64,000 nt of DNA. It comes from Glandiceps talaboti. Taxonomy: Eukaryota > Hemichordata > Enteropneusta > Spengelidae. The notes under the pieces were generated by a model. The model had not been told where the DNA came from. It saw only the letters and a list, made by a program, of their open reading frames with translations, and did no database searches. The translations under genes and the position numbers were made by a program. The stretch lies in contig NC_135560.1 in the NCBI RefSeq assembly GCF_964340395.1, positions 12,567,598 through 12,631,597 of the forward strand. The letters are read 5' to 3'. This document shows positions 11,201-53,400 of this stretch, piece by piece; within the stretch, counting starts at the first letter, position 1; each line of letters opens with the position of its first letter.

Positions 11201-14200
11201 TGAGAGAGACATTAAAGATGTCAAATACAGAAGATTTGAACAGATTGACGGCTTGTTCACTTGTGCTTTTAGGCCATATCTTTTTATCATTGGGCAATAC
11301 AAGGGTAAGTCAAACAAACAAACAAACAGCTTGTACATGTGTACATTGGGCCATATCTTTTTATTGAATTGAATTTAATGGAATCAAAATGAAATTTATT
11401 CCACCAGTGAAGAAAAATATATACACAAACTCTGAAAGCAACAGAAAGAACATTTTTGGTGAGGGCCATGGAAATAGTTCCCTAGGAACTAATCAAAGTC
11501 CATGGACCAGACATGCAAATAATTAAGACAAATTTGGGTGGGTATGACTCTGAGTTTCACAATAACAAAAAAAAAAAAAAAAATTATGTAGAGATAAAAA
11601 TATGTTGGTTTATCATTGGGCAATACACGTAAGTCAATCAAATAGACTGATAGCTTTTATTTTGTGTTGAGATAAGGAAAAATCAGGATTTTTGAGAATT
11701 AGCAATTTGATAATTGATTGTATTGACATACATTTACATTGTATAATGATTGTCTGGTGGTTATTATGATGTATTGATCACAGTTTTCTGATTTATTTTA
11801 CAACCCTAGATAGTTTTATCATTGCTACAGTTTTCACATTTCTGTGCTTCGAAAAGCATTTATGCCACCTTGGGGTAAAAAACAACATCTACGGTAGTTG
11901 TGTGGACTTGGTTTAAATAAAGTAAATTCTCCTTTTCAGATAAAGTTAAACCAAGTGAATGACGAAAGTTGTTACAGTGTAGTTTACTCTCATGTTTTTC
12001 ATGACTATTACTTAAATAGTGGGAAATTTCACTCGTTAGCAATCAAGGAGAGACACAAAGGATATTTATTCCAACTTCAGGAGTATGAGTACTGAATACT
12101 AATATAAATCATATCATAAACTATTTTCTATTTTAATTTTTATTCATACCACCAATTTTAGGAGAGTCTAAATATGGTCATGCCAGCAATGCAACTTGCA
12201 AGTAAAATTCCAGATGTTCACGTGCAGCTTTGGGCGTCAGCACTTCTAAAAGGTAATGTTACTATGAAATCCTCAAAAATAAACTATAATCTACACAATA
12301 TTTGAAAAGATAATATTTGGTAGAATGCTAGTTGAAAAATACACCATATTTTTTGCTGAAACTCTAATGAATTGCTGAGTATAAATAAATCATGTAAATG
12401 ATTTATTTTTTCAAAAATATGACAAAAAAATGTTTTCTGATGACACTCCCATGCCAGTGGGCATCTATTTTAGAGTCAGATTCACAGCAGCAGTGCTTGT
12501 TATTGATATGCTTATCTAGAGTGCAACTTTTCATTGTAAAAACGAGTACATATTCAGTGGTTTTTTCCACACAGTCCAGTATGTTAGTGGGCATTATATC
12601 TGTAGAAAAAATCAAACTATTGCAAATATCCAGCTAAAATATATCCAGCATCAAAATAAATAATATTGACAGTATGTATATCTACCATAGCAGATTTTGA
12701 CATTTGACATGTCAATCTTCATATTCCTAAGACTGGTTAGGAAATTTCTGATATCGATGAACTGTTCTGTGTGAAAACAGAACGGATTGTTTGTATTTGT
12801 TTTTTTTTTGTATTTCTATTTCAGTTTACAAATATGTAAATTTATGATTTTTTATTTATTTATGAAATTACTAGATTTGTACCAGCTAAGTGGAGATCCA
12901 ATCAGGGAATCAGAGGGATATCAAATGCACACTTCATTCTCATCTCAGCTACTCAAAGACCATTTCCAGTCAACACAGTTATCAGAACACCAGCTTATAC
13001 AGGTGAGTTGATGTTTGTAGTTTAATCAAAGTCATCAGAACACCAGCTTAGGGTGACCCCATTTTTTTCCTGTTTCTCATTACCCGACCGACCCAAATTT
13101 TCAGCTCTGACATCAAAATAAAAAAAATTATTTTTGCTCACCCTTAATAATTTGTGGAACAGCACCATCTCTGGCAACAATAAGCAATTGTCTTGACTGT
13201 CAGTGTCAACTACAGTCATGGTGGCGGCAACGGCACTTGTTCATGAACAGAGCAATTCCTTCATGACGGAATTTATTCAAGTAGTGAGCCTGAAAACATG
13301 TCAATTGTGTACAGAAGCTGGGAAAGGGCTTGTTACCAGGAATTCAATAAAAAGAAGATAGAGAGGAGGAAAAGGAGAGGCAGAGAAACACAAAGACAAT
13401 TTTGTATTTTTTTCAACTTTTTTGTGTGAAAAATAATCCAACCCATGCATAGTTGCTATGAAAAGGTAATGAGAAACTTTAAAAACATAGGGTCACCCTT
13501 ATACAGGTGAGTTGATGTTTGTAGTCAACACAAGGACCTACAGGCTACACAGACAAGTTCATTGTAATTTTCTCACCTAAGTACTTGCAATTTTCACTGT
13601 TAATTCTCATAATACTTGAAATAGAATTTGACCCCCTAGCCATGTCATAGGAATAATGACCATATGATTTCTTGGTCTACATCATGACTTCCTGTCCATT
13701 TATCAATTGCATTATTATATGTGCACGTAAGAATAACTTGATCTCCATGTTCTATTTTGACCTCTAGGATGAGGTAAAATGTTAGCTTAGATACTGAAAA
13801 TTAAAAATTTACAACTGCCAACATCAGATGGAAAGGTAGACTGTAAGATACGTCGTGACGTTTCACCCTCACCGGCCTCCTCTGTGTTAGGGGTTGGCCG
13901 ATGGTTGAGGGCACCCCGTCACGGCGTACCTTACAGACTAATGGAAAGGAACCTGTGTCAAACAGGAAAGCAAACAAGTGAATTGGATTGATAACATGTG
14001 GCACAGCATGTTGGAAGTACAGATACTTATATTACATTTCATCATTTGATAAGAACAGTTGTATGGCCTCTTTACATAATAGGTCACGGTTACAAACAAG
14101 TTAGAAGTTCCCCTAGCATTTCATTCATGTACACATAAAGAGGCCATAAAACTGTTCTTATCAAACCATGAAATGTAATACAAGTCTCTGCTGTTCAACC

Positions 14201-14391
14201 TGCTGTGTCACGTTTTATTAATCCAATTCATTTGTTTACTTTCCTTGTTTGTGACAGGTTCTGTGCATCCTAAGGTCTGATGTCGGTAGTTGTACTAAAT
14301 TGCTTGTCTTTGTTTCTTTTCCCTACAGTGGACAGAAGGGCCATGTCCTGTACAACAGCCACCAGATGGCGCCAGTGCCAGCCTACTGTAA
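2295..14391 (+). CDS. MAU2: MAU2 chromatid cohesion factor homolog (SCC4), 3' 13 exons
   Basis: MAU2 is the all-TPR partner of NIPBL/SCC2 in the nuclear cohesin-loading complex. Exons, all with AG/GT borders and matching phases: 2295-2390, 3589-3711, 4478-4633, 5592-5667, 6041-6114, 6615-6809, 7988-8131, 8892-8975, 10191-10315, 11193-11304, 12162-12252, 12875-13002, 14329-14391 (stop TAA). They join to 488 residues, against about 613 for human MAU2, so roughly 125 N-terminal residues lie left of the window. Strongly conserved blocks are KPVLRKAI and [11 protein letters not shown] (exon 1), ELLGVGADY (2), [13 protein letters not shown] (3), [13 protein letters not shown] (4), [18 protein letters not shown] (5), [15 protein letters not shown] and [10 protein letters not shown] (6), [12 protein letters not shown] (7), [20 protein letters not shown] (10), [11 protein letters not shown] (11) and a last exon ending ASLL. 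Two exons (10 and 12) have their 3' ends duplicated in the next intron. Identification rests on remembered family sequence and is very secure. Confidence 0.96.
4985..5400. repeat. Tandem repeat, about 20 bp unit, in MAU2 intron 3
   Basis: Some 18-20 degenerate copies of a unit like CAGTTATTGCTACATTATTC, ending about 190 bp before exon 4. Overlapping open frames in this stretch are repeat artefacts. Confidence 0.85.
6820..6960. repeat. Tandem repeat, 21 bp unit, just after MAU2 exon 6
   Basis: About six copies of a TTCATTATTGGTGGTGTATAT-like unit begin within 15 bp of the exon 6 splice donor (6809/6810). Unlike the four cases described elsewhere, the unit does not resemble the exon end. Confidence 0.8.
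7245..7390 (+). mobile_element. Fragment of composite foldback element (family J)
   Basis: Contains GACATAGACACG...TTGTC(A/G)TGACATAGA and TTCCATATTTTTCTGTTCAAC, which also occur in order in the element copies at about 9673-9740, 21495-21590 (reverse) and 53540-53640. Only the tail part is present here. Confidence 0.5.
8255..8347. repeat. Tandem repeat, about 31 bp, three copies
   Basis: Three near-identical units of the form TTTTCATAAACTATGGGTTC followed by TGGAGAGTCAC in the intron after MAU2 exon 7. Confidence 0.85.
9412..9740 (+). mobile_element. Composite foldback element, family J, copy 1
   Basis: A palindromic core (CAGCTGAGGAAAATC, GTGACCTAAGGGGCCTTGTC, then the reverse-complement GCCATTAGGTCACTAG and TATTTTTCTGGCTGAA) is followed by a tail with CACGGGTTGTCATGACG and CCATATTTTCTGTTCAA. 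The same core plus tail occurs at 21495-21790 (reverse) and 53285-53655 (forward). No transposase is visible, so it is a non-autonomous repeat of unknown class. Confidence 0.7.
9895..10112 (+). mobile_element. Degenerate SINE-like repeat, copy 1
   Basis: The segment with TATACAGCTGGATTGACTGG, GTGACATGGCTCGAATCAGC and AACCTGCAGATTGC has a relative at about 62180-62355 (CATACAGCTGGGTTGACTGA, ACTTGCAGCCCTGAG, GACCAGTGTGATT). The wording resembles 3' portions of tRNA-derived SINEs common in marine invertebrates. It lies in the intron before MAU2 exon 9. Confidence 0.45.
10395..10530. repeat. ACCAC-type microsatellite
   Basis: Imperfect (CACAC/CACCA)n run of about 135 bp, 80 bp downstream of the MAU2 exon 9 donor. 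Confidence 0.9.
11272..11642 (+). repeat. Duplicated end of MAU2 exon 10 with its splice donor
   Basis: The exon 10 end plus donor (11272-11334) is repeated downstream in two pieces: GGCCATATCTTTTTATT at 11349-11365 and TTTATCATTGGGCAATACAC followed by GTAAGTCAATCAAA at 11609-11642. The two pieces are separated by about 243 bp (11366-11608) containing a long A run and a TTCAATTCAATAAA-like end on the reverse strand, which looks like a retroelement fragment. A donor-like GTAAGT is retained at 11629. Confidence 0.75.
12981..13524 (+). repeat. Duplicated end of MAU2 exon 12 with its splice donor
   Basis: The 40-bp segment 12981-13020 (last 22 bases of exon 12 plus 18 of intron, including CAG|GTGAGT) is repeated at 13034-13050 and 13502-13524, split by a 448-bp inverted-repeat element. 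Removing the element and one TTA restores a near-perfect copy of the exon end and donor. Confidence 0.85.
13048..13501 (+). mobile_element. PIF/Harbinger-like MITE with TTA target duplication
   Basis: Starts GGGTGACCC at 13051 and ends GGGTCACCC at 13498, flanked on both sides by TTA (13048-13050 and 13499-13501). The inverted ends extend about 35 bp with some mismatches (CTGTTTCTCATTACC against GGTAATGAGAAAC). A 3-bp TTA/TAA target and GGG-starting ends are typical of PIF/Harbinger; no transposase is present. The empty site is known because the element splits a copy of the MAU2 exon 12 end. Confidence 0.8.
13810..14294 (+). mobile_element. Long inverted-repeat (foldback) element before last MAU2 exon
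   Basis: Arms of about 150 bp: left 13810-14084 (interrupted by a smaller element), right about 14131-14294. Matching pieces include TACAACTGCCAACATCAGA with TCTGATGTCGGTAGTTGTA, GAATTGGATT with AATCCAATTC, and TTTGATAAGAACAGTT with AACTGTTCTTATCAAA. The loop is about 45 bp. The right end stops 35 bp before the last MAU2 exon, so in pre-mRNA the hairpin would sit beside the polypyrimidine tract. Confidence 0.75.
13828..13949 (+). mobile_element. 104-bp foldback MITE nested in the larger one, 9-bp target duplication
   Basis: Element 13837-13940 has ends TAGACTGTAAGATACG and CGTACCTTACAGACTA and is almost a perfect foldback (CGTCGTGACG against CGTCACGGCG). It is flanked by ATGGAAAGG at 13828-13836 and 13941-13949. 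A 9-bp target duplication is usual for Mutator-like elements. A diverged relative lies in a FAN1 intron at about 48737-48835. Confidence 0.75.
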
Positions 14392-14595
14392 AACAGGTTG
14401 ACATGTCATCAAATCTCATGTCTCTCTGTACTAAGGCAACTTTATAACTAACTACCAGTGTTTTCTTTTGCCACTCTGTAAATATTCCAAGCTGGGCCCA
14501 CAAGAAGAGTTTCCATATTTTGTACAAATATAAATCAAACCATTTTCTGTCTCAGTACTTTTGCTCATAGTAGACTTTTTTTGTGTAAAGACAGA

Positions 14596-14601
14596 AATAA
14601 A
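14596..14601 (+). terminator. Candidate MAU2 polyadenylation signal AATAAA
   Basis: The first canonical AATAAA downstream of the MAU2 stop, 205 bp beyond it. Further AATAAA copies occur (for example at 15364-15369), so longer 3' UTRs are possible. Confidence 0.5.
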
Positions 14602-17504
14602 TGGACTTCAGTATCAAAAAATAGAAATTAGAAGATATATTTTCCCCCACTTTTTTCAACGTACAGTAATAGGAGTAATAGATGGCTTGAATGCGTTAAC
14701 TGTAGATAGCACATGTTAAAGTAGCGCTGCATTATTTTGTGTACGCATTTGGGGGTGAGGGGGTAGGGGAGGGGGGATGTCAAGGATAAAATCGTGACTA
14801 TTTCTGAGCTAGTCGACAATTTTTTTCACAAAGGGGCTAGAATAGAAATAATTTGGACAGACTGTTATTTCAGTTCTCAATATGCATGAAAAAGACTGTA
14901 TTTATTGTAAATAGTGTTATGGTGTTTCATTCTGTGTTGTTGAACACAGTAACGTGATTTGTGCAGAGTCTAAGTGTGTTTAGTTCTTTAACCCTGATGG
15001 AATAGTATATTTTTTATGATATCTTCTAGACTTAAAAAAAAATTGGAATTAATTTTTTTTTTTTTGGAAATCCTGTGTCTCATTCCTTACTTATCTGTAG
15101 AAAAATGTAAATACAGCGTAGTTTATATGTTTATACAGGAATTTTGTGGTCATTCGTCCCTCTTTTTTTGAAAATGGAATGACCCGTGTATTCAGTATGA
15201 TGGGGGCTGTACCATGCTAAATAGTAACATGGGTGGGTATGACAGATTTTTTAGCTTGCTGATGGCAGTTTTCAACTTTATATGTGAAATTGTTGGATGT
15301 GATCATTTCAGTTTTGATATGCCAGCTTGAAACACAACACTGCAGTTGAATTTCTTCATTATAAATAAACCAATTCGATTCATAGATATTGTTCGAGAAA
15401 AATCATGTGAAGAAATCGAAATAAATAATTGACATTAGTCTTTTGTGAGAAACCTAATCAGGAACTAATTCGGTGTTTTAACAATTCGTCAAAAAACATC
15501 TTGTTATGATTTTGCCTCACTGTACGTAACCTTTTCTTTCTTGCCAACAATGTTCCAAATCTGTGCTATGTAATATATTTTTTTGTAACTTTTTTCACTT
15601 TGAATTATTTGTGTTATGTTAGTCATCATTACTACTTTGTTGTGTTGTCAATTTCATCATACATAGACAGGACAAACTGGGAAAAAAAAAAAAGACACAA
15701 ATTGTGTAAAATAATGTACATTCAATTTCTTGTAGCAATATACAATATTTTATAGTACAATCAAGGCAGCTTTCACGGATTTTCTTCAATTAGTAGTCAT
15801 TTTTACAAAAGAGAAAAAATAATCTTATATCGAAGGATCGTTCATTCCTTCTAAAAATTGAAAATAAAACCCTGCCCCTTGCTAAGTTTTGCCACCGTTT
15901 TGTCCTAATTTCAGCCAAGATGTAAGTATAATTGTTGTTTCTGGATTATTCTACTGTTTTTCTTCAAGGTATACCCATAAAATAGATACTTGTTAGTCAT
16001 TTTTATCCAGTTCTATATTCAAATAAATGCGAGGCTTCATTATTTTTGCCTGAAAGTACTAAGAAGTGTTACACATCTCTTTTATGGTGTTAAAATATGT
16101 CTCAGTGAATGAATTTCTTTAAAAAAATTTGACCATTTTGTTCAGTTCGAATTAACTACTGTAAAACTGAAATACTTTCCTATTTACTTTGGCATAAGTT
16201 TGGTTGGAAACCCTATGAAAATGTTTGAAAAATAGGGTTTACTTTCTCAGACGTCGTAATGAACTTGCTGCCTTTACAACTATACTATTGTGTATTGCTA
16301 CTGTGAGCACATTACCAGACTAAATCTTGTACCAAAAGGCCAACAAATGATCGGGGAGCAGTTAGGTAATTTTGCTGCCAAGTATTGATCCAAGTCATTC
16401 TTCTCAAAAATCATGTTGTGATTGTTCATTCTATTGTTCATTCTATTGTAAGAATCAGGTGTACAATGCATTGCTATCCTCCCTCTCACATTGGTGACCT
16501 TTGACTGAAATGTGACCCATGACCTCTAGTTATTTATAGCTCTTAATTAACATATACCTGTTGTTGTGATTCAGCCAGTGGTCATACTTCAACCAATACG
16601 GCAACAAAAAAAGTGATCAATGTTAAATATTGAATTAATCATACTGGAAATGTCTTTTCTGTATAAGATGTGCCTCAAGTACTAATTTTCATGCAAAATA
16701 AAAAGATTCCAAAACCAGCCTTCTGAAGTCTTATGCAAAGTCTGTTACAGTAACATAGACAAACGGTGAGCAAGAAATTGTGAATATTTCCAAAAGTTGA
16801 TTTCACATTTACTTTCTACCATAAGAACTATTATGGTTTAACTTTTTATCTTAAAACTCAACATCATTCAGCAGACGTGAAACTTTTTTGTGAAACATAA
16901 TCTTGAATTATCAAGGATTCTCTATTCTCCATTCCTAATCATGAAAGCATTGTGTACACTCACTTGTACCCTACGTGATGCAAAAATATAATTGTCTTGC
17001 ATCATATTAGCCCAGAGACTTGCCTATCTCACTCAACATACTGGTTTTTTCTTATGAAAAACATTTTCAAACCAGGAGTATCTGGGCAACAGCAACTTGA
17101 AGACCAATCAGAAAGGTCCTTTCATGCCAGCCACTTTTGAGAATTTACATGTAGCTTCATGTAACCACGACAACTGGATGTGTATGCATTTTAATGGAAG
17201 TCCATGTCATGGCACACCATATTTTGCAATGCATTTCCAATCAATCAATCAATCAATCAATCGAATATCCTCGATAATTCAGGAGAGTTAAAACACATAG
17301 GTCCCTTTCTACAGTCTGGTACACCAAGTAGGATTCATAATGAATGTGGTCAGTTAAACAAATCTCAAAAATGTTACCACACAGAAATAGTCTGTTTACA
17401 GATAATGATCATCTCAGCTAGATTGATCCATCACATGGTGATAGTATTGAAGGAAGACTACTGTGAGAGTACCAATGCATGGCCTTTATATCAAGCAATA
17501 TGTC
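14602..17504. other. MAU2 3' flank, no gene seen
   Basis: AT-rich with several T and A runs. It could include an extended MAU2 3' UTR. I see no conserved reading frame, RNA gene or clear repeat apart from a short (AATC)n run near 17237-17263. Confidence 0.5.
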
Positions 17505-17710
17505 TACTAGTCAAGCTCTTGGATATGGTAGACGTGGCATCCTACTAATGGTTTGATATGATGTATGTACCCCTCAAGCTGCTGGATATGGCATATGTGT
17601 GCTCCTCAAGCAGTTGGATATGGCATCATGCTGAATGTGCACTGGATGTGGCATAGGATACCCCTCAAGCTATTGGATATTTTATATATGTACCACTCAA
17701 GTTATCCAAG
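17505..17710. repeat. Degenerate tandem repeat, about 35-65 bp units
   Basis: Four to five diverged copies of a unit containing CCCCTCAAGCTGCTGGATAT and GGCATATGTG. Confidence 0.6.
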
Positions 17711-17926
17711 GTACCAGTGAACTATAGGAGATGTTCATACTTGTTATGCTAATACCTGACAACCACACAGCTATCTTTTGTTGGCAGAACTGCCATTTGC
17801 ATTTCATGGGGAATCATTAACTAGTAGATTGTTTGTGACCAGCGCTGTCATTGAATTTCTTGTCTGTGCTTGTACTTACATGGCACAGTGTAAACATATT
17901 GGGGTTCCTGCTTACATGTGCTAATC

Positions 17927-18390
17927 AATCTGATTAAAATCTGATGTGGTGAAAGCGGCTAGATGTCTTTATTTACTTCTATTTCCATCGTTCTGTGTGT
18001 GATGATTGCCTCCTTCCCACATCTGACCCTGTGTAATAGAAAATCTTGTTTGAATTTCAAGGATCTTGAAAGGTTTCTTCAACCAATCAGCACGATTCTT
18101 TCAAAATCATTCTGAGAGATTGCGCTACCAATGACAGGTCGTGTCGTCAACGCAATTTCTCGGTGTGTATGTTTGTTTTTTCAATTTCTCCAGTGTGAAC
18201 AGCTGCCAATGTATCGCTCAACCTGATTGGCTACTCAAAAGCGCGAGTTCAAAACAAGATTTTCTATTACACAGGGTCAGATGTGGGAAGGCAGCGATCA
18301 CCCGGAACAAAACAAACGACACAAAATGATGGAAATAGAGGTAAATAAAGACATCTAGCTGCATTCACCACATCAGATTTTAATCAGATT
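17927..18390. mobile_element. Foldback MITE family A, copy 1 (464 bp)
   Basis: Ends are exact inverted copies: AATCTGATTAAAATCTGATG at 17927 and its reverse complement ending at 18390. Arms run about 150 bp (for example TGTGTAATAGAAAATCTTGT at about 18032 pairs with ACAAGATTTTCTATTACACA near 18257). Shortened relatives occur at 23180-23302 and 43352-43515. No coding capacity is seen. Confidence 0.88.
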
Positions 18391-18939
18391 GCAGTTTCAT
18401 TGACTGTATGTTGTAAACTTTATCAGGGACTCACATTTGGTCTCTGTGATGTTTTGAGTTTAGCCTGCAACCAAAAATGCCCACATTTGAAATACTGTAT
18501 CTGTAACATTGAGTAGGTTTATATGTAATTCAGTGATGTTTTGATGTGTTTGTCTGCTGTAGCTATGGTAAGATGCAAACACCATAGGGTGATCATGCTT
18601 CCTTTAGCTACTTTGCAAGTGTGAGCAGCTGGTGATTGTATTTATACTATAGTAAATCCTATTTGCAAGTTTCACCACCATTTCAGAAAAAAATAAAGTA
18701 AAGGGGAAATTCAGATGCCACAGGCTTGAATTGGCTGTGTAGAAACTTTGGAATTATTGAGAATCATTCAAAATTGTTAGAAGCAAACGCTCTGCCAGTC
18801 AAGTATATATCACGTGTATAAATAACCCCATTTGATTTACCCCTCTAACAAATGTGAGCAAGTATAAGACATGCACTTCATTGCTTAGTTTTGCCAGAAA
18901 TATTGGTATATGCACTGTACTGCTGCTTGCCGCCTCTTG
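18391..18939. other. Spacer, nothing recognised
   Basis: AT-rich intergenic sequence between two repeat elements. No gene, RNA or repeat could be supported. Confidence 0.5.
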
Positions 18940-19300
18940 GGCCTAAAAAAATAGTTGTTTGGTTCCGGTTACCCGACCCCACCTATTTTTTCACTGCCAA
19001 CCCTAAACTTTTTTTTTACGTATTTGAGAAAAAATTGTGAAGTTTCAGGAGAAATAGTGGATGTGGAAACTGACGTCAACTTAAAAAGACAATATAAAAC
19101 TGTTCTTCAAATCTGTAATGGCTGTACATCTGATGGGAAGGAATAAATGACACAAAGGCCATATGGAAAACATTGGAAAACCTGAACTAGACACTCACAC
19201 ATGAAAAAAATTATGATAAAATAAAATAAAAAATCTACTGACCCCACCTATTCTCTAAAATTGAGCGTAATTGGAACTACACAATTTTTTTTATGAGGCC
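18940..19300 (+). mobile_element. Inverted-repeat element family B, copy 1
   Basis: Begins GGCCTAAAAAAATAGTTG, then TTGGTTCCGGTTACCCGACC, and ends with the rough reverse complement (AATTGGAACTACACAATT ... ATGAGGCC). The same element lies reversed at 43237-43782, and its left part again at 59533-59715. About 360 bp, no transposase. Confidence 0.8.
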
Positions 19301-19429
19301 CTATCATCGATAATAGTGTAATTGGCAACCAGAGGTTCACTTAGCTAACTCAGGGTGTGTGCTTTTATGGCAGAATTACATTACTGAACATCACAATTTC
19401 ATACATAGTTGGCTGCATTTTAAGCATTG

Positions 19430-19900
19430 GCGATAAAAAGCTTGAGGTAGAACAATAGAAGTAACTGAAGTTGACGACTGCCATCATGCAAAATTTGAGG
19501 TTTCAGGCTGAAAACATATGGTTTCTAGTTTGGTCACTCTATCACAAAACATATGCCACAGTTCGTATTAAAAAGCTGGAGCTAGAACAACAGGAGTTCA
19601 AACTACAGCACAAATCACAAAATTTCCAGTTGACTATTACGGTACCGTGTAAAATTGTACATTTCTACTCAGAATCAAAAAAGTTCTCTGAAGCAAATCC
19701 TAAATTTTCAGGATTTCTAGTTTGGTACGTCCCCCTTTGTCCCAAAATGTTTGTCCTACTTTGTAGTATCCAGCTTGTGGTAGTATATAAACAGAATTAA
19801 CTAAATCATAAATTGAAAGTTTCACAACATTTCCAGTTGACTATTGCCATGCAAAACATTTAGAATGAATTCAAAATGAAAATATTATCATTTATACTTT
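19430..19900. repeat. Degenerate direct repeats, about 200 bp
   Basis: Phrases such as TTCTAGTTTGGTCACTCTAT / TTCTAGTTTGGTACGTCCCC and TTTCCAGTTGACTATTACGG / TTTCCAGTTGACTATTGCCA recur at roughly 200-bp spacing, suggesting two to three diverged tandem units. The 109-residue open frame across it is not recognised as a protein. Confidence 0.45.
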
Positions 19901-21494
19901 GGTCAAACTATCTTACAAAATCTACCCCACCGTGTAGCACTGCCAAATACATTATAAACATGTGCCTACTTGGCACTTTTTTCAAGATGTTAGAAATTTG
20001 TTGAACACAAGGCTCTTTAAGTAATGTATTCGTCACTTATATGGTACAATTTTGCTGTGAGTCAGACAATGCTACAAGATATTTGTTTGTTTTAACAATG
20101 AAAATAGTTGAATAATACCTTCATTACCTTGTACATGTGTTTCCACATTCTACTTTATGTATACATTCTGTTCAAACCCATTGTAATTCAGTTACTTGGA
20201 CTGCCTATGACACACAATTATTCAAATTTATGTTAAAAATGTCAAGCCTGCTGAGCTTGAATTGTACATGTACCATGTGTCAAATAAACTGAAAGATTTG
20301 ACATTGTGTACACACCTTTAAAGGGCCATGTTTCAATCCCTGGTTATCGCATTAGTGTTATCTTAGTTAGGAGTAAATGGGATCATTCTTTGTGTTCTGT
20401 ACCAAGTTTTTCTATTGAATTGCCAAACAAATGTTTTTCACGTCTAGATTTTAATCCTAATCTGAAGAGGGCCTTTAAAATCAAAAGATTATGGTTTAAC
20501 AGGATTGCCAACAAAGATGAATCTATCAGTCTACGTATAAGGGGTTTCTGTCCAACAAACCTTAAGTTTACTGTCAATGAATCCTTCGCATGACAATATA
20601 AACAAAACTACCCATTTTTCAAAGCTGCACTAGCTGCAAATGTATTGTGTTTTGAAACTATTTTATTAGATGGTATGAGTTGATTGTAATATCATACACG
20701 CTGAACTATATTGAATCAACTGTGGTAAGCATATCTTATGTAGCTGTATACATAATATGTTACAATCAATGCAATCAAATGGAATTTTCAGTCCGCACCT
20801 GAATATCAGCCAATTGTGATGTCAACCAGTTACCAATACTACCTATGGATGGAATCAACCTGTAATTAACATGTGCAATGTCTAATTATTGCTATTTTAA
20901 CAATTTTCAGTGAATAGATTGTTGGTTATCTGATCAAAAAACAATACTCCAGTTACCAGCTAGTTGCAGGTTCAGTGTTACAGAGCTTGAAGTCAAGTAA
21001 ATCAAGAGTATAATAGAAATAAGTTTGGGACAGAAAGAAGGTTGACGACATTAATTCTAAAGAAATCATCTCAGTTAGCTTACTTTGTTTTTATGTGTTG
21101 ATTTCCACAAACATTACATGTTTTTTTTTCAAAGTTTTATTTTTGTATTTTTAAAAGTTCTAAATTTGTCTTGATGTAGAATGGTAAAATCTACCAAGTT
21201 CCTTTTTTGTGTTTTTGTTCATTTTTTTTCATGACGAAATATTGCATGCTATGTTTTCAGGTCATATGTCAGTTGTGAAGCAAGGTTAGTTATAAGATTC
21301 TGTGTGTAGGGGCATAAGCTGTGTTTATATGATTTGGGACTGTTTTTTTTTTTTTCTGCATCGTAAAATTTCTTGTACTGTTCTACTTACTAATGCATAT
21401 TTAACTACCCATTTGCTTTTAGCAGACTCAAACCTGACATTTGGGTGTATTCCATAAATGGTCCAATGACATAATTTATTATACCATGCACAAA
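19901..21494. other. Spacer, nothing recognised
   Basis: AT-rich intergenic sequence. Open frames of up to about 95 residues resemble nothing I know and have no splice or conservation support. Confidence 0.45.
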
Positions 21495-30974: not shown

Positions 30975-30981
30975 GTTTATC

Positions 30982-33900: not shown

Positions 33901-36900
33901 TTATTGAAAATAATGTTTCCTATCATCATAAAATCTGTTCAGTGTCAAACACAGTTTAATTTTGTGACAATTCTGTAGTTGGAACAACGATCATTATTAA
34001 TTAAAATTTTCTTTCTACCAGTCCGATATTTGTTTGCACAGCCAAAAAATTGCTATTTGATCAACTTGTCCAAGTTGAAATGACAAAAAGGGTTATACCA
34101 CTAGAGGGCATAACAAATGAATGCAGGGTAGCCATCGTGTTTAGACTTGTACACAGGACTAGTCGTGATTGTTTATAAATTCCAAGTTGCCTAAGCTGGC
34201 ACCCAGGAAGTCTGTAAAATAACAGACATCATCAGTTTATTTGTGTGGTGACACATTTTGTACTGTCATAGTAAAAGCACTGTTGAAATAGTCAAGATGA
34301 CCTTGACCTTCAAGGTCAAATCTCCAAGTCTAATGAATTGATATATTGCAGACAGAATTGATATATCTCAGACAGAAGCTATGCGACATAGCAGTATTAT
34401 TTACTTTGATATATACCCATATGTACGGTAAAGCAGTAAATTACAGTATGGGTTTGATTTTGATCTAGAGATAATGGGTCTAATGAATAGAGTCGTTCAA
34501 GTGTTGAGAAGTAGGCTGCTATTCATGTTGAATGAGTAATCTAGTCAAAATCCCAGTTGACTGCCTTGATTACACCTTGATTGATATAGATCAGGAAATA
34601 TTCTGTAACAAAGGATATCAAGGCAAGATATACGTGTGTAAGTAGGTCACCATCTGACATTATATCTAACTCTATGTGTTATGACATAGAACAAAACATC
34701 ACAAGTTCTAATAAATGGTAAAATATGTGAAGAATGATCACTAGATGTGATGCACTGCTATATCTGTGATCTAATTTTTAATGGCCTCAACCATGACCAA
34801 ATATTACATTGGACCTATACCTTGAAGTAGAGAGACTTGGTTTGTAGTGAAGTTTTAACAGGCATAATAATCTCTATTTTCTTGGTTCATAGGATGAAGA
34901 TAGAATTCAGTGATCCAGCTCGTAGTAATAAACGATTCCGATCGGAACAAGAGGATCAATCTGGCAGCTCACAGGAACTATCTCCAATTAAGGAAAATAA
35001 TCACGACGGAGACCGCAAAGTTGTCACCTCTGCTGAAGAAGGAGACTTTGTTGCTGATGACAGTGATCCAGAAGTGTCATTCAAAGAAAGCAGCTTTAGG
35101 GGAGAAGAGGATGCCATGGAGGAGGAACAAGCAGATAACCATGGCAACAATGAAGATGAGACTACAGTTTCCATGGTTGCAAAAGATGACGAGGATAACA
35201 AACAGGTTACTTCAGAGCAGGGTGATGAGAAGAGTGTACATGAACAAGGGAATGAACTTGTCGGATCTGAACAGGATACGGAAGAGGAAACGCTTGACCA
35301 AGGAAATAAACAGGATACAGATGATACCTCAGAAAAGACAGAAAATGTGGAAAAAGCAGAAAATGATATGACTGAACCACAGGAGCAAAGGGAACAAAGT
35401 GTTGTTGATGAAAAGGATGCTAAGGGAGAGACAAGTGTTGATGATGTAACACCAAAGGAATCAGGTGATCCAGATAGTATAGAAAATACTGAGGAAATAA
35501 AGGATAGTAAAGATAAAACCGTTGTAGAGGATGGTAGTGAAAAGTCAGAAACAGAGAGAACTGTAGAATCAGACACAGATGTGAAATCTGATACCAAAGA
35601 CTCTACCAATGTGATAGAAAGTGTAGATATAGAAGATGAAACTACAGATAAATCAAATACTGAAATATCAGAGGACCAAAAAGAGGAAACAACGGAAGCC
35701 AAAAGTAAGGAGGAGGAGGATGATAAAGATGATGATGTTGATGATGATAAAGATAAAGATAAGTCAGATGATGTTGAAAAGATGGAGGTTGACCAGCCAC
35801 AAAATGTAACTGTGAAGGATTCCGAGGATGTAGTCACAAAGGATTCTGAGGATGTAGTCACAAAGGATTCTGAGGATGTAGTCACAAAGGATTCTGAGGA
35901 TGTTGTCACAAAGGAGTCCCAGGATGTAGTCACGAAGGAGTCCCAGGATGTAGTCACAAAGGAGTCCCAGGATGTAGTCACGAAGGAGTCCCAGGATGTA
36001 GTCATGAAGGAGTCCCAGGATGTAGTTGTGACTAAAGCTGACAGTGAGAGTGGAGATAAAGATAAAGATGTGCCAAGCGATAAAAGTGATGAAATCTCAA
36101 AGAAAGATGCTGATAATGCAGAGGAAGAGGAGAGACTACAAAAGTAAGCATTGTTATGTTTTGTTTCTCTCAGGGGTTTCTTGTGTGGGGTTCCAGGGAA
36201 GCGAATTAGGCAATGCGTTGGTGCATGTGTTTCTCTTATTAACACATTTAAATACATGGGTGGGTGTGGATTTAGAGATGATTAGGGTGGGGTTGAACAT
36301 CCCTGTTATTACAAAAGGTCTCTGTGGAATGTTACAATGCTATCCAGTGTTAATCTTAATGCTATGAAATACAGCAGCAGATGAGTGTTTTTGTTCAGGG
36401 CAGGAAGCAGGTAATCTGCCTGACTTACGAGTTACCCTGGTTTTTTACCACCATATTACCGGTACCTCCTTTTCTGTTACCGAGGTTACCCATCCATAGC
36501 AAAAACACTGCAGATAATAAGTATTCATTGGTAAGGCTTAGAAAAAAAAAAAGGCAAGCACTGAAAGAAAAAATATTTAAAAATGAAAATATGAAGCTAA
36601 TGTTTTATAATAAAAGTGATTTGATAATGATGATGTCAGAATTAGACTGTAATTATGTTTTCAATGCCAAAATCAAGTAATCAAATCGGTTTGGAAACCA
36701 AAGTACGAATAAGAAGTGTTAAGAATATTGTACATTTATGTGACAGCATACATGTACAATTAATTGAGAGAAGGGTGGGTCATAATTATTGCTGCATTAC
36801 AAACTATATCTAAGGACCATTTAATGGTATAGTAGGAAAATCTACATGAGTTCCTCATATTTTATTTGCATTGCGAACCAAAATGATTGAATGTAAGGGG

Positions 36901-43782: not shown

Positions 43783-44055
43783 AGTAGAAAGCTTTTACAA
43801 CATAAACACATAGGTGAGGTGATGTGTTGGATTTGATAATCTTGATGACTAAAGAGCTATTACGTGTTTTGATTTACGTTTGTATTTCTACAGTAAATGG
43901 GTGACACATCATACACTGACAATTAGTTCTTTATTCACATAATAAAATTACTATATGGCACACAACAGATTTATGTCCATATCTACATCACAATACTGCT
44001 CTAGATTTATTCCGAAGAAATATTTCATCATAAAATTATTGTACGTTTATTTTTA
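43783..44055. other. Short spacer, nothing recognised
   Basis: AT-rich sequence between two elements with no supportable feature. Confidence 0.4.
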
Positions 44056-44324
44056 TAGTGGCCATATGGATGAAGATTGGGTATCGTGGCTTCCTACTTG
44101 AAAAATCAATGTGAAACAACATATGTCGAGTCCTCTGTAGTTAAACTCAATAATTTGCAAAGGACTTTAAGAATGCGTAAATTGTTTGTTATTGTACATA
44201 CGATAAACTATTAGAGTTACAAATACAGACTTGGTCAGTGTAGTTTCACGTTGATTTTTCAATAAAATTGTTTGTAAATAAAAAATCCAAAAGAAATCAA
44301 ATCCTCATCCATATGGCCACTTTA
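44056..44324. mobile_element. 269-bp MITE with TAGTGGCCATATGGATGA ends
   Basis: Left end TAGTGGCCATATGGATGA, right end TCATCCATATGGCCACTTTA. A second inverted pair lies inside (TTGAAAAATCAATGTGAAAC and GTTTCACGTTGATTTTTCAA). A TA duplication at the borders would suit a Tc1/mariner-type parent, but this is inference. Only one copy is seen in the window. Confidence 0.75.
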
Positions 44325-44755
44325 ATATATACGTTGTTTTATAACACAAAATGAGTTCTGCTTTCCTGATATATAGCAGACCAGAAATAGGGTATAAAAA
44401 TTCCTACTTATTTCAGGTTTGTTTTATTCGACAGTGTTCAGTTGCTGTTACTGGCCAAAAAATGTACCCTGTCTTAGGATATTTCAGTGTTGAATCACAA
44501 AATGTGTGGGAATGAAAGCATACAAATGATTAGTTTGCTTAGATTTCATGGGTTTACTCAAACTAGAAGTAAAGATTTAGCAACTTGCTTGGTAACAAAA
44601 ACTGATCAAAACGGACATCTCAATCAAACATATCAATGAAATTTACAAAAAAAATATCCACTTTCTGGACAAGTACTCTCTGATTTGGACAACTGATTTT
44701 TAAATTTCTACTTGTCCAGTGGGAAAGAAAATATTTTTCATTATTTCAAGCCCTG

Positions 44756-44840
44756 CATCGTTAGCTGGTCTTGCCTCTTAATACTCGTAATCAACCTCAT
44801 TGAGATTACGAGCGTTAGGTGGTATGATCAGCTAACGATG
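44756..44840. other. 85-nt near-perfect hairpin (pre-miRNA-like or tiny foldback)
   Basis: Arms of 37 nt close with CATCGTTAGCTG / CAGCTAACGATG and CTCGTAATC / GATTACGAG around an 11-nt loop (AACCTCATTGA). Only three mismatches are seen and several pairs are G-T wobbles on the plus strand. Size and shape suit a microRNA precursor, but a minimal foldback element is equally possible. Confidence 0.4.
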
Positions 44841-46124
44841 TATCTCAACAGCACAGTCACTAGGCTAGTAATGATCATGCTTTCAGTAAGAAATAACTGA
44901 ATACTGATTTTGAAAAGATAATTTTGAACATTCCCTGATTCTTTTTTGAATATTAACAAATACAAAGTAAAAATACAAAGCATACTCATTGTAGTTGTGT
45001 CTTTGAAAAAATTTCCTTGAAAATGACTTATTTCAAGTTATACATTCAATAACTTCTCAATTCTTGATTCCATCTTCACTCAATACTTGCTCGTAGTTTC
45101 TTTCCACCAACAGCTAATGACGAAAAAAAGATTGAAAAATATGTTAGAACAAGAGGAAATATTCACAATATGGGTAGTTAGGTCTTCAACTGTTGAGAAG
45201 CTTTTTCTAAAGCTTCTAACAAAAAACTGGAAAATTTCCACAACCGAATCATTTTATATTGCACACATGATGATTGGGTACTGTCTCATGTTGTTGTATG
45301 GGGTAAAGAAAGTGAAAATTTGTTAAGATTAGTAAAAGATTTATATGTGAACAGCGCCCTCAACATGTTAGTGGTATTTCACTTTTCTTTTTTCATTTAC
45401 TGGTAAATTGTTTAGAGAAAACCAGCTGAATTTGTTTCTGAGTGAAACAATGGGTGGGTGATTTGCATCAAGAAATATTGCTCAAGTCTACAGCAGGCAC
45501 CTGTTTTCTAATGGCTGTTAAAAATTAAAATTTTAGAAAATAAAAATGTTTTAAAAAAAATATTTATAAAACATGAATATTATCTTGATGCCAAACATAA
45601 AATTATATGTGATAAGTTTTGGAATATTTGAATTGCTTCTCAAATTAGGTTTTGTAAGTAAATGATCTCAATCAATACTTTCGCTGTCATTCTGTCAAGT
45701 AGTTCTGTGCATGCAAGAATCTCTTCATTCTGGCACATGCAGGGATGGTCACAGGTATCTTGTCAGTATCCCACTGAGATTGACTGTAAAATCTTCTAGT
45801 TTAGTGTACAACACTTCAACAAATGAAAGAAGACATAGTTGAAAACCAACACTAGTAATCTATCAACGTCAACATAAACGTTCTTTTTGCTTTTCTTTTA
45901 AAAGATATATAACTGAAAAATCAACTTCAACTGGAAATAAATATTCAACAGCATACTATATTTTAATTATATTTGATAAAACCTAGTTAAACAAATAGTT
46001 GGTTTGAAACATCGAGATCAGTCATAATGTGAACCACTGAAGCTAGTTTGTTGACAAGTGAGATCAGAGTTGATACTGGACAGCGCCCCCAGTGTCAACA
46101 TTGGAATATACTACAGATTTTTGC
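44841..46124. other. Spacer / FAN1 3' flank
   Basis: AT-rich sequence. An ATTAAA on the minus strand (45962-45967, about 160 bp past the FAN1 stop) is a possible poly(A) signal. Nothing else is recognised. Confidence 0.4.
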
Positions 46125-49100
46125 TCACTGACCAGTGACATGACAGACTTCAGCTGTAGCACCAATTGAGTTCAGATAGTCAATCCAGAGAATCTGTTTG
46201 TGAGCTAGTCTGTCGTTTGGACCCTTCACTTCCACAATCTGAAGAAAATGTGAAAAACTAAGATCAGAAAACTGGTGACCAAAAATTACCACCTGCATGA
46301 ATAACAAAGATTATAACCGCACAATCAGTTCAACTTAGTAAATTGACTATGTCATTATATCATTTCACATGAAAGTGCTGTAACCATTGTAAAAAGAATG
46401 CCACGGTAACCAGATAATCTATGAAAATATTGCAACTAAAATCTTGTTTCTTGTTGATAGCGAGTTCCTCTTCAACCAGTTACACTGATGCAGTTCTGTT
46501 GGGAATGACACTGGCACTTGGCACAGGAAAATGGACTACAAATCACCGGGAACAACATGCAATTTTTTAAACAGAAATTAACGGCCACTATCAATATATT
46601 GTCTTCAGTCAAAAAAAGCATAAAATACTGTCAGTTCTCTTATACTAATTGATCACTTACTAGTATCTCATTTATGCAAACAGACTTGTACAACCCCATC
46701 AAATTGCAAAGTTGGAGAAAAATGTAATTGGTAAGATTTTTGTCACCATTGTGCAGTCACAAGACATCCCCCCCCCCTCCCCTTTACCCCTAAACACATA
46801 CTAAGAGATAGGTTCTGAGCTATAAAATGACACCCAGCTTACTTTGAAAGTATTATTTACAGTGTTCCAGACCACCAAGTCTGGGACTCCTCCTCGACAG
46901 TGTCGATGGTCTCTCAGGATTCGTCTGCCAATTCCAGACAGAACCTCCCCTCCCATGCATGAAACCAGACCCTGTAAAGTAATACAAAACATGAGTAATC
47001 TCTCAGGGTGTATAGGCTTCATTTCAAAGTTCTACATGGATAACAGCGCCCCCATGTGACAGGGTTACATCATGTTATCAACTTTTGTTTTTATGCAAGT
47101 GGCTCTGCCATAGGTACATAGAGACAGCAGGGGGCCTTGTTTTCTATGGATTAAGACACAAAACTAAATATGAACAGTTAGGAGAATATTCATGAGAAAA
47201 ACCAATTTCACATGTATGTCATCACATCTCATCTCATCACAATCTACTGGTGTATGGCTGTATCTCTTGTTATATAACTCTATGTATTTATCTGGCATAT
47301 CTGACTTCCTTTATTTGTTAGATTAACATATTGATTTGTGAGGACTGTGTCAAAGGTGAAAGGTTAAACTTACTTTGACATGACCTAGGTCATTAAACAG
47401 TTCCCAATTGACCAAGGTGCACTGTTTGCCTTCATGAGTGTTCCATGTTTCTTCCACCATAGTGTGAAGATCATCAACGTTAGATTTCATTATCAAATCT
47501 AATCTTCTTTCTATTATGTCTTTTCTATTGTCGTAAAAATCATCTGTTCTCATGTCCAGTGGAGCACTCTGTGTAAAAAACAAGAAAGTAAACTCTTTAA
47601 AAAAATGTTTGGATAAATGATTCTAATGTTAAGATTCAAATAATGTCACTGCAGTTAAATACCATTGTTATTAAAATTTACGTGAATTCAACTTTCTCAG
47701 AAATCACTTTTTTAGTATGGACATAATTTTTTCATTTTTCATACCAATGTCATCATCCAAACTGAGTCGATAAAATCACAAAGAATAAAGAAAAGAATAT
47801 ATAATGAACATAGACTAAGTCCTGCCTTGCTAGTAGACCAATCACAGAACTTGGTAATTAAACTCACCTGGAATGAGTACATAAATACATCTGGTACATC
47901 ATCAGCATACAAAACGCCACATGTTAACTGACCAATCACAGAACTTTACAGATAAACTCACCTGGAATGAGTACCTGAATACATCTGGTATTCTATCATC
48001 ATGCTAACCGACCAATCACTGAACTTTACAGATAAACTCACCTGGAATGAATACCTGAATACATCTGGCATATCATCCACATAAAAAGTGTCACATGTTA
48101 ACTGACCAATCACAGAACCCTGACAGATAAACTCACCTGGAAAGAGTACCTGAATACATCTGGTATATCAGCAGCAAAAACAATGTCCCACGCTAACAGA
48201 CCAATCAAAGTTGTAAATGTAGACCCTTCACCATGCAGACCTGTCAATCAAAGACACCAACCAATAAGAAATTATTGTAAATGACAATTCAGAAATATAC
48301 AAATTTTCACATATCACACATTTTTAGATGACACTTGACAAACTGAAAACTATTTAAAAAACGTGAATCAGTGATTCATTGCACACAACCTTTTCTGTGT
48401 TGTTAGATAAATCAGGTGTATGCTAGGGAGTCTAACCTATACCTCTAACTCCCTATCTTGACTACAAATTCTAACTTAGTGCACAGTCCACTGTTCTACA
48501 ATTTTTCCTGCTAATGTGACATACCTTCATTGTAACCATGATTCTGTTTGTAGTAATGTAACACATACTCTTCAACTCTAGATGTTAGAATTTCTTCTTC
48601 GTTCTCCTCCTCATTCTCTTTCTTGATTACATAGAATCTTTCATTCACCACATCGTTTTGTTTAATATGACCAGAAATAATAACCTTTCATAGAAACGAA
48701 AAAGAGAGAAGAGTTTCCCGGTGAGGATAATGATAATCACACGCAACATGTCACCTACACTGTAAGATATGCTATGTTGCTCAACCCTTAAAGTTCTGAA
48801 AGGGGTTGGCTGATGTATGAGTGTGCCCTGACACATACAGACTACCATCTACCAAATAACAACACTATTCAAAGAACACCACCTCTATCCAAAACACACC
48901 ACTAGAGGGAGCTGTTTAGGAACAAGACCTCGACTAAAAGACGACAATCTCTGCTCACCTTAGGAGTTTCGGATATCTTGGAAATGTCAAATTCCTTCAA
49001 TCTTCCTTTCAACTTGACATTGCTTGGTGATTCACATATCTTAAAGACTCTTTGTTGAAGTGCCAGCCTGTGACCGGTTTTGACGTGACTGTCGGATAAA

Positions 49101-50351
49101 GCTTCTTTTATAGCATCAAGAGACTGAAACCATAATAAACATGATTTTACATCCGAACATAATTTATACCAAGCAAGGTCATCTCATAACAGAAATTTCT
49201 ATATAGCAGTACTATCATAAATTATTCATGAAGTCAGTAATATGCAAATTATATTTTTGATATACAAATATAAATGAGTTAAAATATGCAAATTATATTC
49301 ATGATGTCAAATATATGTAGATTACTAATGCTACAAATATGCAAATATAAACCTGTGACGGATTAGTCAATGAAAATCGTAATATATTATAGATAGAGGA
49401 ATTTTCTTTTATGAAACTGGTATGCTCTGTATTAGTAGACACATGTTTGATATGCTTAAAAGGTTCGGTCAAAATTTGTTGTCCAAAGACACGCCTCAGA
49501 AGTGATGATCGATGGACTACTTTTCATACTACTTGTATTTCATCACATTTCACTAACAAAATAGTTAATAACATCATATTTGTAAAAAAATAATCTGTAG
49601 TATTTTTGACATCTAACATTCAGTCTTTACAGCAAACAGATAATTCAGATTTTCAGTCATATACGTTGCCATAGAGAAGATGTATCAACAAGTCCTTTCT
49701 TACCTTTGATGGTTTCTTGAGATGTTGATCTAAGTTGAGTGCTAATCTATCCCACCATCTTCCCCTAGCACGCACACAGTAAGTATCTTGGTTCAGTAGT
49801 TCTCGAAGTTTCTCCACAGCCTCACCATAGCGTCGCAACTTCTGCAAAATTTCAACACCCAGTCCGAGAATGCGAGTGTAAATCCAGGAAGTTGTGTAAC
49901 ATCTCAGGAACATTGGTAGACTTGTATTGAATCTGTTGTAAACACAAGGTATAGCTATAGGAACATGCACTGTAAAAGTTGCTGAAATTGCAGGTGACAG
50001 CACCCTCTAGAGGCCAACATGAAACTAGCAACTATCACCCTTTCACTGTAACAATTGTGTTATATCTATGAAATTTTTTGAAAGAGAGAAAGGTGTACAG
50101 AGTGTGTTTATAAACTTCCACTACATTTCTCCTTTAACTTTTAACTAATAAAACTTTAGAAGACCTTTTACCACTTTATCAAGCAGTAAACATGTATCTT
50201 TCAGCTTGATTCCTTTTTGTATTTTTAAACAAGGTGGAATTAATCAATCATTCACATATTATTTTTTGGAAAACACCAAAGTTTCTTATATTTTGTAATC
50301 CCTTATCTAATTGTTTCAGGTATGGGAAAGTCTACAATGTGTCAATTAAAA

Positions 50352-50424
<73 letters not shown>

Positions 50425-53400
50425 TGTGTGTGTGTACATGTGTGCATGTGTGTGTTGGAAATTTCTCTAGGTCTAAATTACCTATGGATCTCTGGGTCTT
50501 GTCTCATTGGTTCATATTGTTGGCATGCCTCCGTATACATCTGTAATGCACCTTCAAAGTCATTGTTACCAAGGAGACCATGAATATCACTCTCATACTG
50601 TAGAGCAACCTGAAATCTTTCAATATAGAAAACAAACAAGATAGTTCTAAAATTTAGCAAGATCATATATCCAATAGGGTAGTGTTGATTTTGTATTTAC
50701 CCGATAGGTATAATTTCTTACATATTATAAACATGGTAGAATATCAAACAACAAACAACAAACAACAAACAAACAAACAAACAGTTTACACATATCCCAT
50801 TCTGCATCCTGGAGTAATGTTATGAGAGGCCATGAAGACAACAAAAAGGTTTACAAGGTATAATCGTTAACGAAAGTCAGTACTACTACTACTACTTTAC
50901 CAAATGTGCACAATTCTAAAAGTAAAAGTCTCAAATATTACATGCAATAATTTGATTTGATCGATTTGATTTTGATTTGCTTTGATTTTAGTAAACTTTA
51001 TATCTGATTTGTTATTGACTGATTGATTGGCTTAGATTAGATTTGATATGATTTGGAAGGGATGACAGAAACTTACTTCAAGAAATCATCTCTACTTCTG
51101 AACAACACTGTTGGCCGATATACTGTATAATTGTGATACATAACACGGCCATAATTGGCTAGGAACAGCATGGACCTGTACAAGAAAGAAAAACTTTCAA
51201 TGTTAGTACACATGTATATACAATAGTTTTGTGAAATTCTATATAGATACACTTCATCTTACAAATTCGATACACTGTAAGATTTGAATTTTGTAGCTAA
51301 GACATGTGTCTGAGACAGTCCAAAACTTGATATTTTTTTTGCCAATTTAGTCCCATTTGAAAGCTATGTACATAATATACTATTTACAAATTAAAGTGAA
51401 CTTTGCTTCTCATAGAATTCTGTCTTATCATTTAGAAATGAGACAATAAAAACATCTTCTTTCATCTTCATAATGTAGGCAGCAAAGTTTGCGAAACTTT
51501 CAATACTTGCATTTACATATTGTTGAAGCAACTTACAGGAGTGATTGACCACCACTTGCATAGACATCTTCTTCATCCGTCACATTGGTCAACGAAAACA
51601 GTAGCAGTAAGCGAGTAAACACTGCCTTTACATCCCGTACCAATTTCACGCAGGAACCTAGAGACTTTTTAGCTCTAAAATGACATAAAAAGAAAGTATT
51701 CATACAACATTTGGCTATTAAGCCATTTATCTGAGTTTGGTTATTTTTTGTTACCATATAGAAAATGACTGCAGTGGTTTGACATGAAATATTCTTGTTA
51801 TCAAAAAGGGGCACACTGCTTGTAAGAGAACGCTGAGCACCCGTATAACTTGATTCAGGGACTGTACAATTACTACAAAGTTGGACTGATTTGTATATTT
51901 TACCTATAGGCAAATTACCTTTTTAGTATTAATGTGTTAAGGCCTCCAAAGATAGATCTTTGCTGTCTGCCATGTCTGAGTAAAGCAGCAACAATTTGAC
52001 TCCGCTGCATACCACTGCATGACACCTTCAGAGATTTGGCCAAAATTTTCAAATCTGGTGCCTGTAGTAGATGTAGTGTCTCTTCTAAATCTGTCAAATC
52101 TTTTTCTATAGAATAAAAATGACAATGGAATTATAACCATAAAATTTGTAATATGGATTAGAAGAAGTAATATTTTACCATTCCATTTCTTCTTTATATC
52201 TTGGGTAAAAAAAAAGTATGCTAGACTACCAGTAGATATTGTTCTCTTATATGTCTCATTGTACTCTCGTAAGACTTCTGTTACCCTCAGTAAAATAGCC
52301 ATGTTATCGTAACGTTCATACACTAATGCAGAAAGCTACACTTCTGTTATACTAAGTTCATACCTGTACAAAGCCACACTTCACTAAAGTTCATACCTGT
52401 ACAAAGCCACACTTCACTAAAGTTCATACCTGTACAAAGCCACACTTCACTAAAGTTCATACCTGTACAACCACACTTCACTAAATACCATACCTGTACA
52501 AAGCCACACTTCACTAAAGTTCATACCTGTACAAAGCTACACTTCCTAAAGTTCATACCTGTACAAAGCCACACTTCACTAAAGTTCATACCTGTACAAA
52601 GCCACACTTCACTAAAGTTCATACCTGTACAAAGCCACACTTCACTAAAGTTCATACCTGTACAACCACACTTCACTAAATACCATACCTGTACAAAGCC
52701 ACACTTCCTAAAGTTCATACCTGAACAAAGCCACACTTCACTAAAGTTCATACCTGTACAAAGCCACACTTCACTAAAGTTCATACCTGTACAAAGCCAC
52801 ACTTCACTAAAGTTCATACCTGTACAAAGCCACACTTCACTAAAGTTCATACCTGTACAAAGCCACACCACTAAAGTTCATACCTGTATGCAGAAAACCA
52901 TTCTTCACCAACTCAGCAGCAACAGGAGTCAGATCTTCAGCAATTTTGGGATAGTCTAGTTTACTAACTCGAAGCCATGTTGGTTTTCTTTGATATAGCC
53001 TTACATATAGTTTCTGGGCTTCATCTACGTGAACAGAAATGAAAATATAATTACTAACATTTAGACATCATTCACAATATCAAAGTGTCAATCCAAATCA
53101 TATATCACTCAGTATTTGAAGACAAATAACAGAATTTGTCTCCCTTTCACCATAAAATAAGAATGAACATTTGAAGGCAATGACATCATCAAGTTGGCAT
53201 GCCATTGGAAGCAAAGTTCCTATCCCAAAATATTTCTACATGCTCAGCCTGTAAAAGTAAAGAATAAATATACATGTACTTTGAGATTATTTGAGGATAA
53301 TTAGATATTATTTCCCCATTATTTTTCTTTGTTCAGCCACGGAAAATATGACTGACCTATGGGGTCTTTGTCACTACAAATCACTAGACAAGTAGTAACA

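Follow-up and report, generated by a model that had tools for sequence, protein, structure and literature searches.

The 64-kb window considered here (the whole stretch of 64,000 nucleotides that was analysed, from contig NC_135560.1 of the hemichordate Glandiceps talaboti) is animal DNA with ~35% G+C, and it carries the genes MAU2, GATAD2/p66 and FAN1, together with a fourth, ankyrin-type gene at its right edge. The peculiarity that concerns us lies in the introns: at some borders, the end of an exon and the 5' splice site (donor) that follows it are repeated within the downstream intron. The phenomenon is real and its kind is already known, and in curated exons of this genome it is much commoner at donors than at 3' splice sites (acceptors). 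The gene models were built by hand, and they were checked by unbroken reading frames and by Pfam, which recognises Cohesin_load in MAU2 (E 7.7e-88), P66_CC in GATAD2/p66 (with a GATA finger below the cut-off), and FAN1_TPR, VRR_NUC, FAN1_HTH and SAP in FAN1. In this way, 30 donors and 31 acceptors could be placed in the window.

An earlier note on this DNA had listed four donors with downstream copies of the exon end and 5' splice site. All four exist, two in MAU2 and two in FAN1:

11193..11304, plus strand: MAU2 exon with duplicated end (continuous frame, Cohesin_load Pfam match, alignment score 20.5)
11346..11644, plus strand: second copy of the end and donor of exon 11193-11304, in the pieces 11346-11364 and 11609-11644
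12875..13002, plus strand: MAU2 exon with duplicated end and donor (continuous reading frame, border alignment)
13020..13560, plus strand: second copy of the end of exon 12875-13002, in the pieces ~13020-13050 and 13499-13526, with a weak third copy at 13518-13560
47826..48206, minus strand: FAN1 donor array with units of 95, 94, 80 and 94 bp and a remnant to ~47826; the first unit is that of exon 48240-48137
52300..52910, minus strand: FAN1 donor array at exon 53024-52884, with 17 CAG/GTATG sites 31-33 bp apart

At the first MAU2 exon, the last ~36 bases and the donor are copied once. This copy is split by a 244-bp insertion (11365-11608) at a TTTAT duplication, and the copied donor sits at 11629. 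At the second MAU2 exon the unit is about 52 bp, and the second copy is interrupted by a 448-bp element (13051-13498) with a TTA target duplication and inverted ends of 35 bp, 86% complementary, which may be a PIF/Harbinger-like element.

The FAN1 exon 48240-48137 has three further copies downstream of the first (94, 80 and 94 bp). The 80-95-bp units comprise ~70 exon and 25 intron bases, the 80-bp unit lacking some of the exon, and four intact CAG/GTGAGT donors are present, with junctions at 48136, 48041, 47961 and 47867. The other FAN1 exon, 53024-52884, is followed by sixteen units of 31-33 bp down to 52363 and then by a terminal remnant. The exon end can be aligned to this distal remnant (score 18), and the inner units are near identical among themselves; a search of viral_contigs found no exact match to the 33-bp unit. 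Of its 17 CAG/GTATG sites, 15 pass the thresholds for both donor and acceptor (our own matrices and thresholds), compared with six other dual-scoring sites when all 402 AGGT of the window's two strands are considered. Moreover, 11 of the 15 possible single-unit exons would be in frame and free of stops, each adding an insert of 11 residues.

Two other origins were considered and rejected. Assembly error is not the main cause, as point changes and indels distinguish the units and two of the second copies bear separate insertions, and whole-exon duplication does not apply to the four loci, where the copies cover exon ends only.

The copies are good splice sites on paper. Together, the four loci hold 21 inner donors, of which 18 score as high as the first donor of their locus, and the use of any of them would lead to a premature stop before the end of the next exon. 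Therefore, if the genes work, position must decide which donor is used. The first donors are themselves not weak, with scores of 8.2, 11.5, 11.5 and 11.8 against a window median of 10.2.

How often do such copies occur at each kind of border? The test applied was a gap-tolerant alignment of the 50 bases around a border against 1 kb on each side, with a match accepted at a score of at least 18 when it spanned the border by at least 4 bases on both sides. In the three genes, local copies were found at 4 of 27 donors and at none of 29 acceptors; ungapped matching detects only 3 of the 27. The ankyrin-type gene adds three donors and two acceptors, none of them spanned, so that the whole window gives 4/30 versus 0/31 (Fisher P=0.0525, with donor 63975 tested on one flank only). 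The same test at sampled points was positive at 131/1502 in introns, 36/467 in exons and 73/2723 outside genes, and at 0/4754 in Markov sequence; therefore, the local copies are not chance matches. When the 15 repeat loci were placed at random within their genes, the four donors seen stood against 2.56 expected (P=0.21), and the absence of acceptors against 2.48 (P=0.036). The donor count of the window is unremarkable, its acceptor count is mildly low, and the window alone cannot carry the claim.

The rest of the genome (590 Mb, 47 contigs) was sampled as well. In the 200 kb to the right of the window, exons were called with an exon-level predictor whose share of exact exons is ~70-80% at cuts 4-6 on its training window, and less with MAU2 held out. 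A full ab initio chain model had been dropped, having merged genes and read RERERE and QTDRQTDR microsatellite frames as exons; several of the 200-kb exon predictions are microsatellite artefacts too. Restricted to non-repetitive exons of recognised genes, the count was 2/44 for donors and 0/46 for acceptors. Predicted exons that were of low complexity, uncertain or from unrecognised genes were left out, among them the spanned donor 142494 (poly-serine) and the spanned acceptors 40339 (low-complexity frame) and 156098 (unrecognised).

A second set consisted of exons of kinase domains. These loci were chosen from partial matches by coordinates and frame before their sequence was seen, with some rows passed over, and their borders were set by script; the script placed some of them well away from the match, possibly in error, and at L056 it took the second copy. 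The first 20 loci gave donors 2/16 and acceptors 0/19, the next 10 gave 2/8 and 1/9, and the pooled result over 14 contigs is 4/24 versus 1/28. At the cut-offs of the script, 4 of the 20 and 2 of the 10 loci yielded no donor, and one locus in each group yielded no acceptor. Among the positives, L069 has an exon-end array in which a unit of 84 bp is present in at least 7.1 copies, with 97% matches. Outside the sample, at L054 (233-477), the preceding kinase exon seemingly ends in a donor array of its own, with a 30-bp unit, 8.2 copies and ACAG/GTATGT.

Outside the window, the total is 6/68 donors versus 1/74 acceptors (P=0.046 one-sided, 0.055 two-sided), and with the window included it is 10/98 versus 1/105 (one-sided P=0.0035).

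A test that needs no gene models points the same way. The donor word CAGGTAAGT is followed by itself within 15-45 bases in 669 pairs genome-wide, and the reversed word in 256, compared with single-word counts of 7510 and 5869. The pair counts are dominated by a few long arrays; hence, loci were counted on C1 and the first 31.29 Mb of C2, where the matches listed contain nine tandem loci of the donor word and four of the control, both small numbers. Three of the nine arrays start at exons with database support, namely those of the cytoplasmic isoleucine-tRNA ligase (also found by a structure search with the L031 exon peptide), KNTC1 and galaxin repeats. The L030 and L035 arrays look coding, with an open frame and a plausible acceptor, and the L035 exon peptide has no match in a search of solved structures; the exon of L039 was read by eye as presumably a DEAD-box motif I. 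In the fetched stretches, no exon is visible at L029 and L033, and the L036 array reaches the edge. The count covers spacings of 15-45 bases, so that arrays of longer units fall outside it; at G000:C1:2213837-2214241, the donor word recurs at multiples of 99 bp.

An acceptor-like word, TTTTYYYCAG, was counted in tandem in 152 pairs versus 31 for its reverse, on a scale not comparable with that of the donor word. A single dispersed repeat accounts for about 60 of the 100 sites in the list. Many of the remainder seem to be unrelated words that happen to be close, and two look by eye like unit arrays. The dispersed repeat, which is locally clustered and contains TTTTTTTCAGCAAAAGCGCTGAGATTTGGTAGCG, mimics tandem acceptors at G000:C6:23857146-23862365, C11:20190536-20194230 and elsewhere.

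Whether donors also exceed ordinary intron points, the third term of the comparison that the earlier note had proposed, depends on the yardstick. One yardstick is an event rate, in which repeat points are weighted by 1/copies, because a used donor represents one ancestral point, whereas n copies in an array occupy the length of n units in the intron. This approximate rate is 1.3% in the introns of the window without the four arrays and 0.7% outside its genes, 1.2% outside predicted exons of the 200 kb and 0.8% in the introns of recognised genes there, and 2.3% in the kinase flanks, donor arrays included. Against the highest of these, 10/98 donors is improbable (P=8e-5), and so is the 6/68 from outside the window (P=0.0045). 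The other yardstick is the unweighted share of present-day introns covered by repeats, which ranges over 2.1-7.3% (4.7% in the window introns once the four arrays are set aside, and 7.3% in the kinase flanks); at least 10 of 98 then has a probability of 0.025 at 5% coverage and 0.18 at 7.3%. Donors are at most weakly raised above present-day coverage and several-fold raised above independent events.

The clearest difference between the two borders appears in a profile across them, which covers 73 donors and 77 acceptors from the window and the 200 kb. On the donor side, 4-6 of the 73 points are spanned at each distance examined between 0 and 400 nt into the intron. On the acceptor side, the counts are 0/77 at 0 nt and 0/77 at 10 nt, 1/385 over the positions 20, 40, 60, 100 and 150 nt upstream, and then 2/77 at 200, 6/77 at 300 and 5/77 at 400 nt. 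The ~150-nt approach to acceptors is protected, and donors have no such zone.

What could produce this pattern? The earlier note offered two options, a mutational preference for donors or tolerance of copies behind a first donor that wins, and it is the second that the repeat-poor ~150 nt before acceptors favours. In the reading that we prefer, with a probability of about 0.6, duplications arise often, are tolerated where they leave the first donor at its position, and are purged near acceptors. The arrays would be mirage-type minisatellites, a kind described in amphioxus. A local tandem duplication would include the end of an exon together with the first intron bases; the copy next to the exon would keep its place and continue as the working donor, and the extra copies would lie inside the intron, where they could drift, gain or lose units and be hit by transposons. 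Selection would tolerate copies beyond the donor, since the correct site is the first to be encountered. A copy near an acceptor, on the other hand, would offer an earlier AG and disturb the branch point, the pyrimidine tract and the order of AGs, and most such copies would be removed. The outcome would be a donor-rich and acceptor-poor pattern in a minisatellite-rich genome, without any hotspot. In addition, the first copy, frozen by selection, would decay more slowly, which may account for about twofold of the donor excess. This proposal goes beyond the counts in two steps, in assuming that splicing uses the first donor and that the asymmetry stems from selection and not from mutation.

Several observations weigh against it. 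Unfiltered ab initio exons of the 200 kb give donors 3/74 versus acceptors 2/81 at the loosest cut and 2/43 versus 1/46 at a stricter one, so that the donor excess, put forward by the earlier note as a wider tendency, holds for the curated exons and the word test and disappears in this set. The curation of the 200 kb was itself made by eye with the test marks visible and the results in view. Among the kinase loci, L057, L061 and L062 are close paralogs with a near-identical border, none of them spanned, so that independence is incomplete, and the exon of L067 is copied at both ends, the acceptor-side duplication lying at 385-509 in minus-strand orientation with a score of 25. Lastly, the donor rate lies above the event-weighted baseline, an excess that tolerance alone leaves unexplained; mutation or retention may genuinely favour donors.

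This last point is where the strongest competitor enters. Donors may be real hotspots, with about one in ten bearing copies of its own exon end, the ~150 nt before acceptors nearly free of them, and the arrays a stock of dual-reading sites; such introns could then splice recursively, or yield micro-exons and new introns. This picture is tentative, and its mutational core, in which transcribed borders provoke duplication by an R-loop, a stalled fork or U1-bound nascent RNA, seems to us unlikely on balance. The 10/98 donors against an event rate of 0.7-2.3% per intron point speak for it, as does a tandem excess of the donor word over the reversed control that is larger than its single-word excess, and some arrays look young (L069 with its 97% matches). 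However, the present-day repeat share of introns (4.7%, 7.3%) is close to the donor rate, and the 1/copies weighting is approximate. Strand composition is divided: in 2-kb windows, the coding strand is G-rich at both FAN1 loci (plus-strand G-C skew of -0.11 to -0.18), but the skew is near zero around both MAU2 loci (0.006 and 0.001), which makes the R-loop-like signature inconsistent.

Could the excess then be an effect of small numbers and of the observer, copies being easiest to see at exons? We consider this quite improbable, even if the four donors of the window do not exceed random placement (P=0.21), the unfiltered 200-kb set is without difference, significance beyond the window is marginal on either form of the test, and the word test counts only nine loci versus four. 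Against it, the kinase exons were picked before their sequence was seen and still gave donors 4/24 versus acceptors 1/28, and the genome-wide pair count agrees in direction. Least probable is that extra donors are favoured as such, as added U1-binding sites that strengthen exon definition or delay premature polyadenylation, for although 18 of the 21 copies have full donor strength and overlapping 5' and 3' signals are reported to help each other at human AGGT sites (accessible passages of PMC10809524), the donors with arrays are not weaker than the window median and young, identical units would retain the motif regardless.

The earlier note knew of no description of such a tendency. Single cases are in fact on record, as the accessible passages of the papers cited here relate. 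The closest are the "mirage" minisatellites of amphioxus, reported from Adh3, TnC, the globins BflGb6 and BflGb9, and PGBD5, and found at both intron ends, donors and acceptors (PMC3087553, PMC3902484). They are reported to splice normally (PMC3087553), and the first repeat of the PGBD5 mirage is said to adjoin the 5' splice site (PMC3902484). Those passages and the present arrays share border-spanning units of 10-160 bp, many intact AG/GT and edges that escape homogenisation. In Glandiceps, the tandem unit spans the border, units of ~10-160 bp lie head to tail (with MAU2 11346-11644 a single split copy), many units keep AG/GT, and edge units escaping homogenisation were seen in the FAN1 33-bp array, the only array examined for it. 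The difference is one of scale, as the amphioxus passages deal with single genes and here the frequency and the donor/acceptor bias were sampled across a genome.

In humans, the IFI6 (6-16) minisatellite places several splice donors downstream of one exon (PMC4526556); its inner donors are said to be used, giving isoforms, whereas here any inner donor would lead to a premature stop. Dual-specific AGGT sites are enriched in tandem-repeat genes such as UBC and VCX3A (PMC10809524), and the string of CAG/GT in the FAN1 intron resembles them in scoring as donor and acceptor at 15 of 17 sites. In UBC, however, the sites lie in coding repeats and their splicing was shown (PMC10809524), and those of FAN1 are intronic and predicted from sequence. 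Human internal tandem repeats at exon-intron boundaries within segmental duplications also alter gene structure; they belong to recent paralogs, and the accessible passages hold no donor/acceptor comparison (PMC2812944). Finally, the Rogers model derives intron gain from tandem duplication of AGGT segments (PMC4974935), and the segments duplicated here likewise carry AG/GT. Intron gain of this type was rejected for our loci, as the copies lie within existing introns, the frames run from exon to exon and no new intron results. No genome-wide comparison of donors with acceptors, and so no earlier measure of the lopsidedness, was found in the accessible literature, a search that left subscription journals mostly outside.

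If the bias is genome-wide, the parts of mutation and selection in splice-site duplications could be told apart directly, and the many genes with a series of equal donors would be a large natural collection in which to study how the spliceosome chooses the first. It also bears on the origin of new introns and of alternative 5' splice sites. A warning for annotation follows as well: where exon ends recur inside introns, gene models easily go wrong and assemblies may collapse.

Two more features of MAU2 complete the survey of repeats at its borders:

6810..6953, plus strand: array of ~21-bp units that begins at the first intron base after MAU2 exon 6615-6809 and leaves the exon uncopied
3529..3588, plus strand: possible old acceptor-side copy, weak (3529-3559 against the MAU2 acceptor at 3588)

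The former is a fifth array adjoining a donor, absent from the list in the earlier note. The latter qualifies the statement that acceptors have no equivalent copies: none is clear in the window (0/31), and beside this faint candidate, whose score was reached by 8 of 3000 shuffles before correction for 29 acceptors, stands the acceptor copy of L067 outside the window.

As for the ankyrin-type gene at the right edge, one open reading frame (ORF) within it has a Pfam match below the cut-off to the ankyrin repeats of LRRK2. On the same strand, the 200 kb beyond the window hold exons recognised by eye as leucine-rich, GTPase-like, kinase and WD-like; their succession on one strand suggests that the gene may be LRRK2. 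Scans of the window with Rfam at gathering thresholds and for tRNAs gave no matches, and of 10 of the 77 listed ORFs scanned with Pfam, none reached the cut-off of its family. Two minisatellites lie in frame within coding sequence, one in GATAD2 (35815-36026, a 24-bp unit of 8 residues in ~9 copies) and one in FAN1 (53932-54133, a 51-bp unit of 17 residues in ~4 copies).

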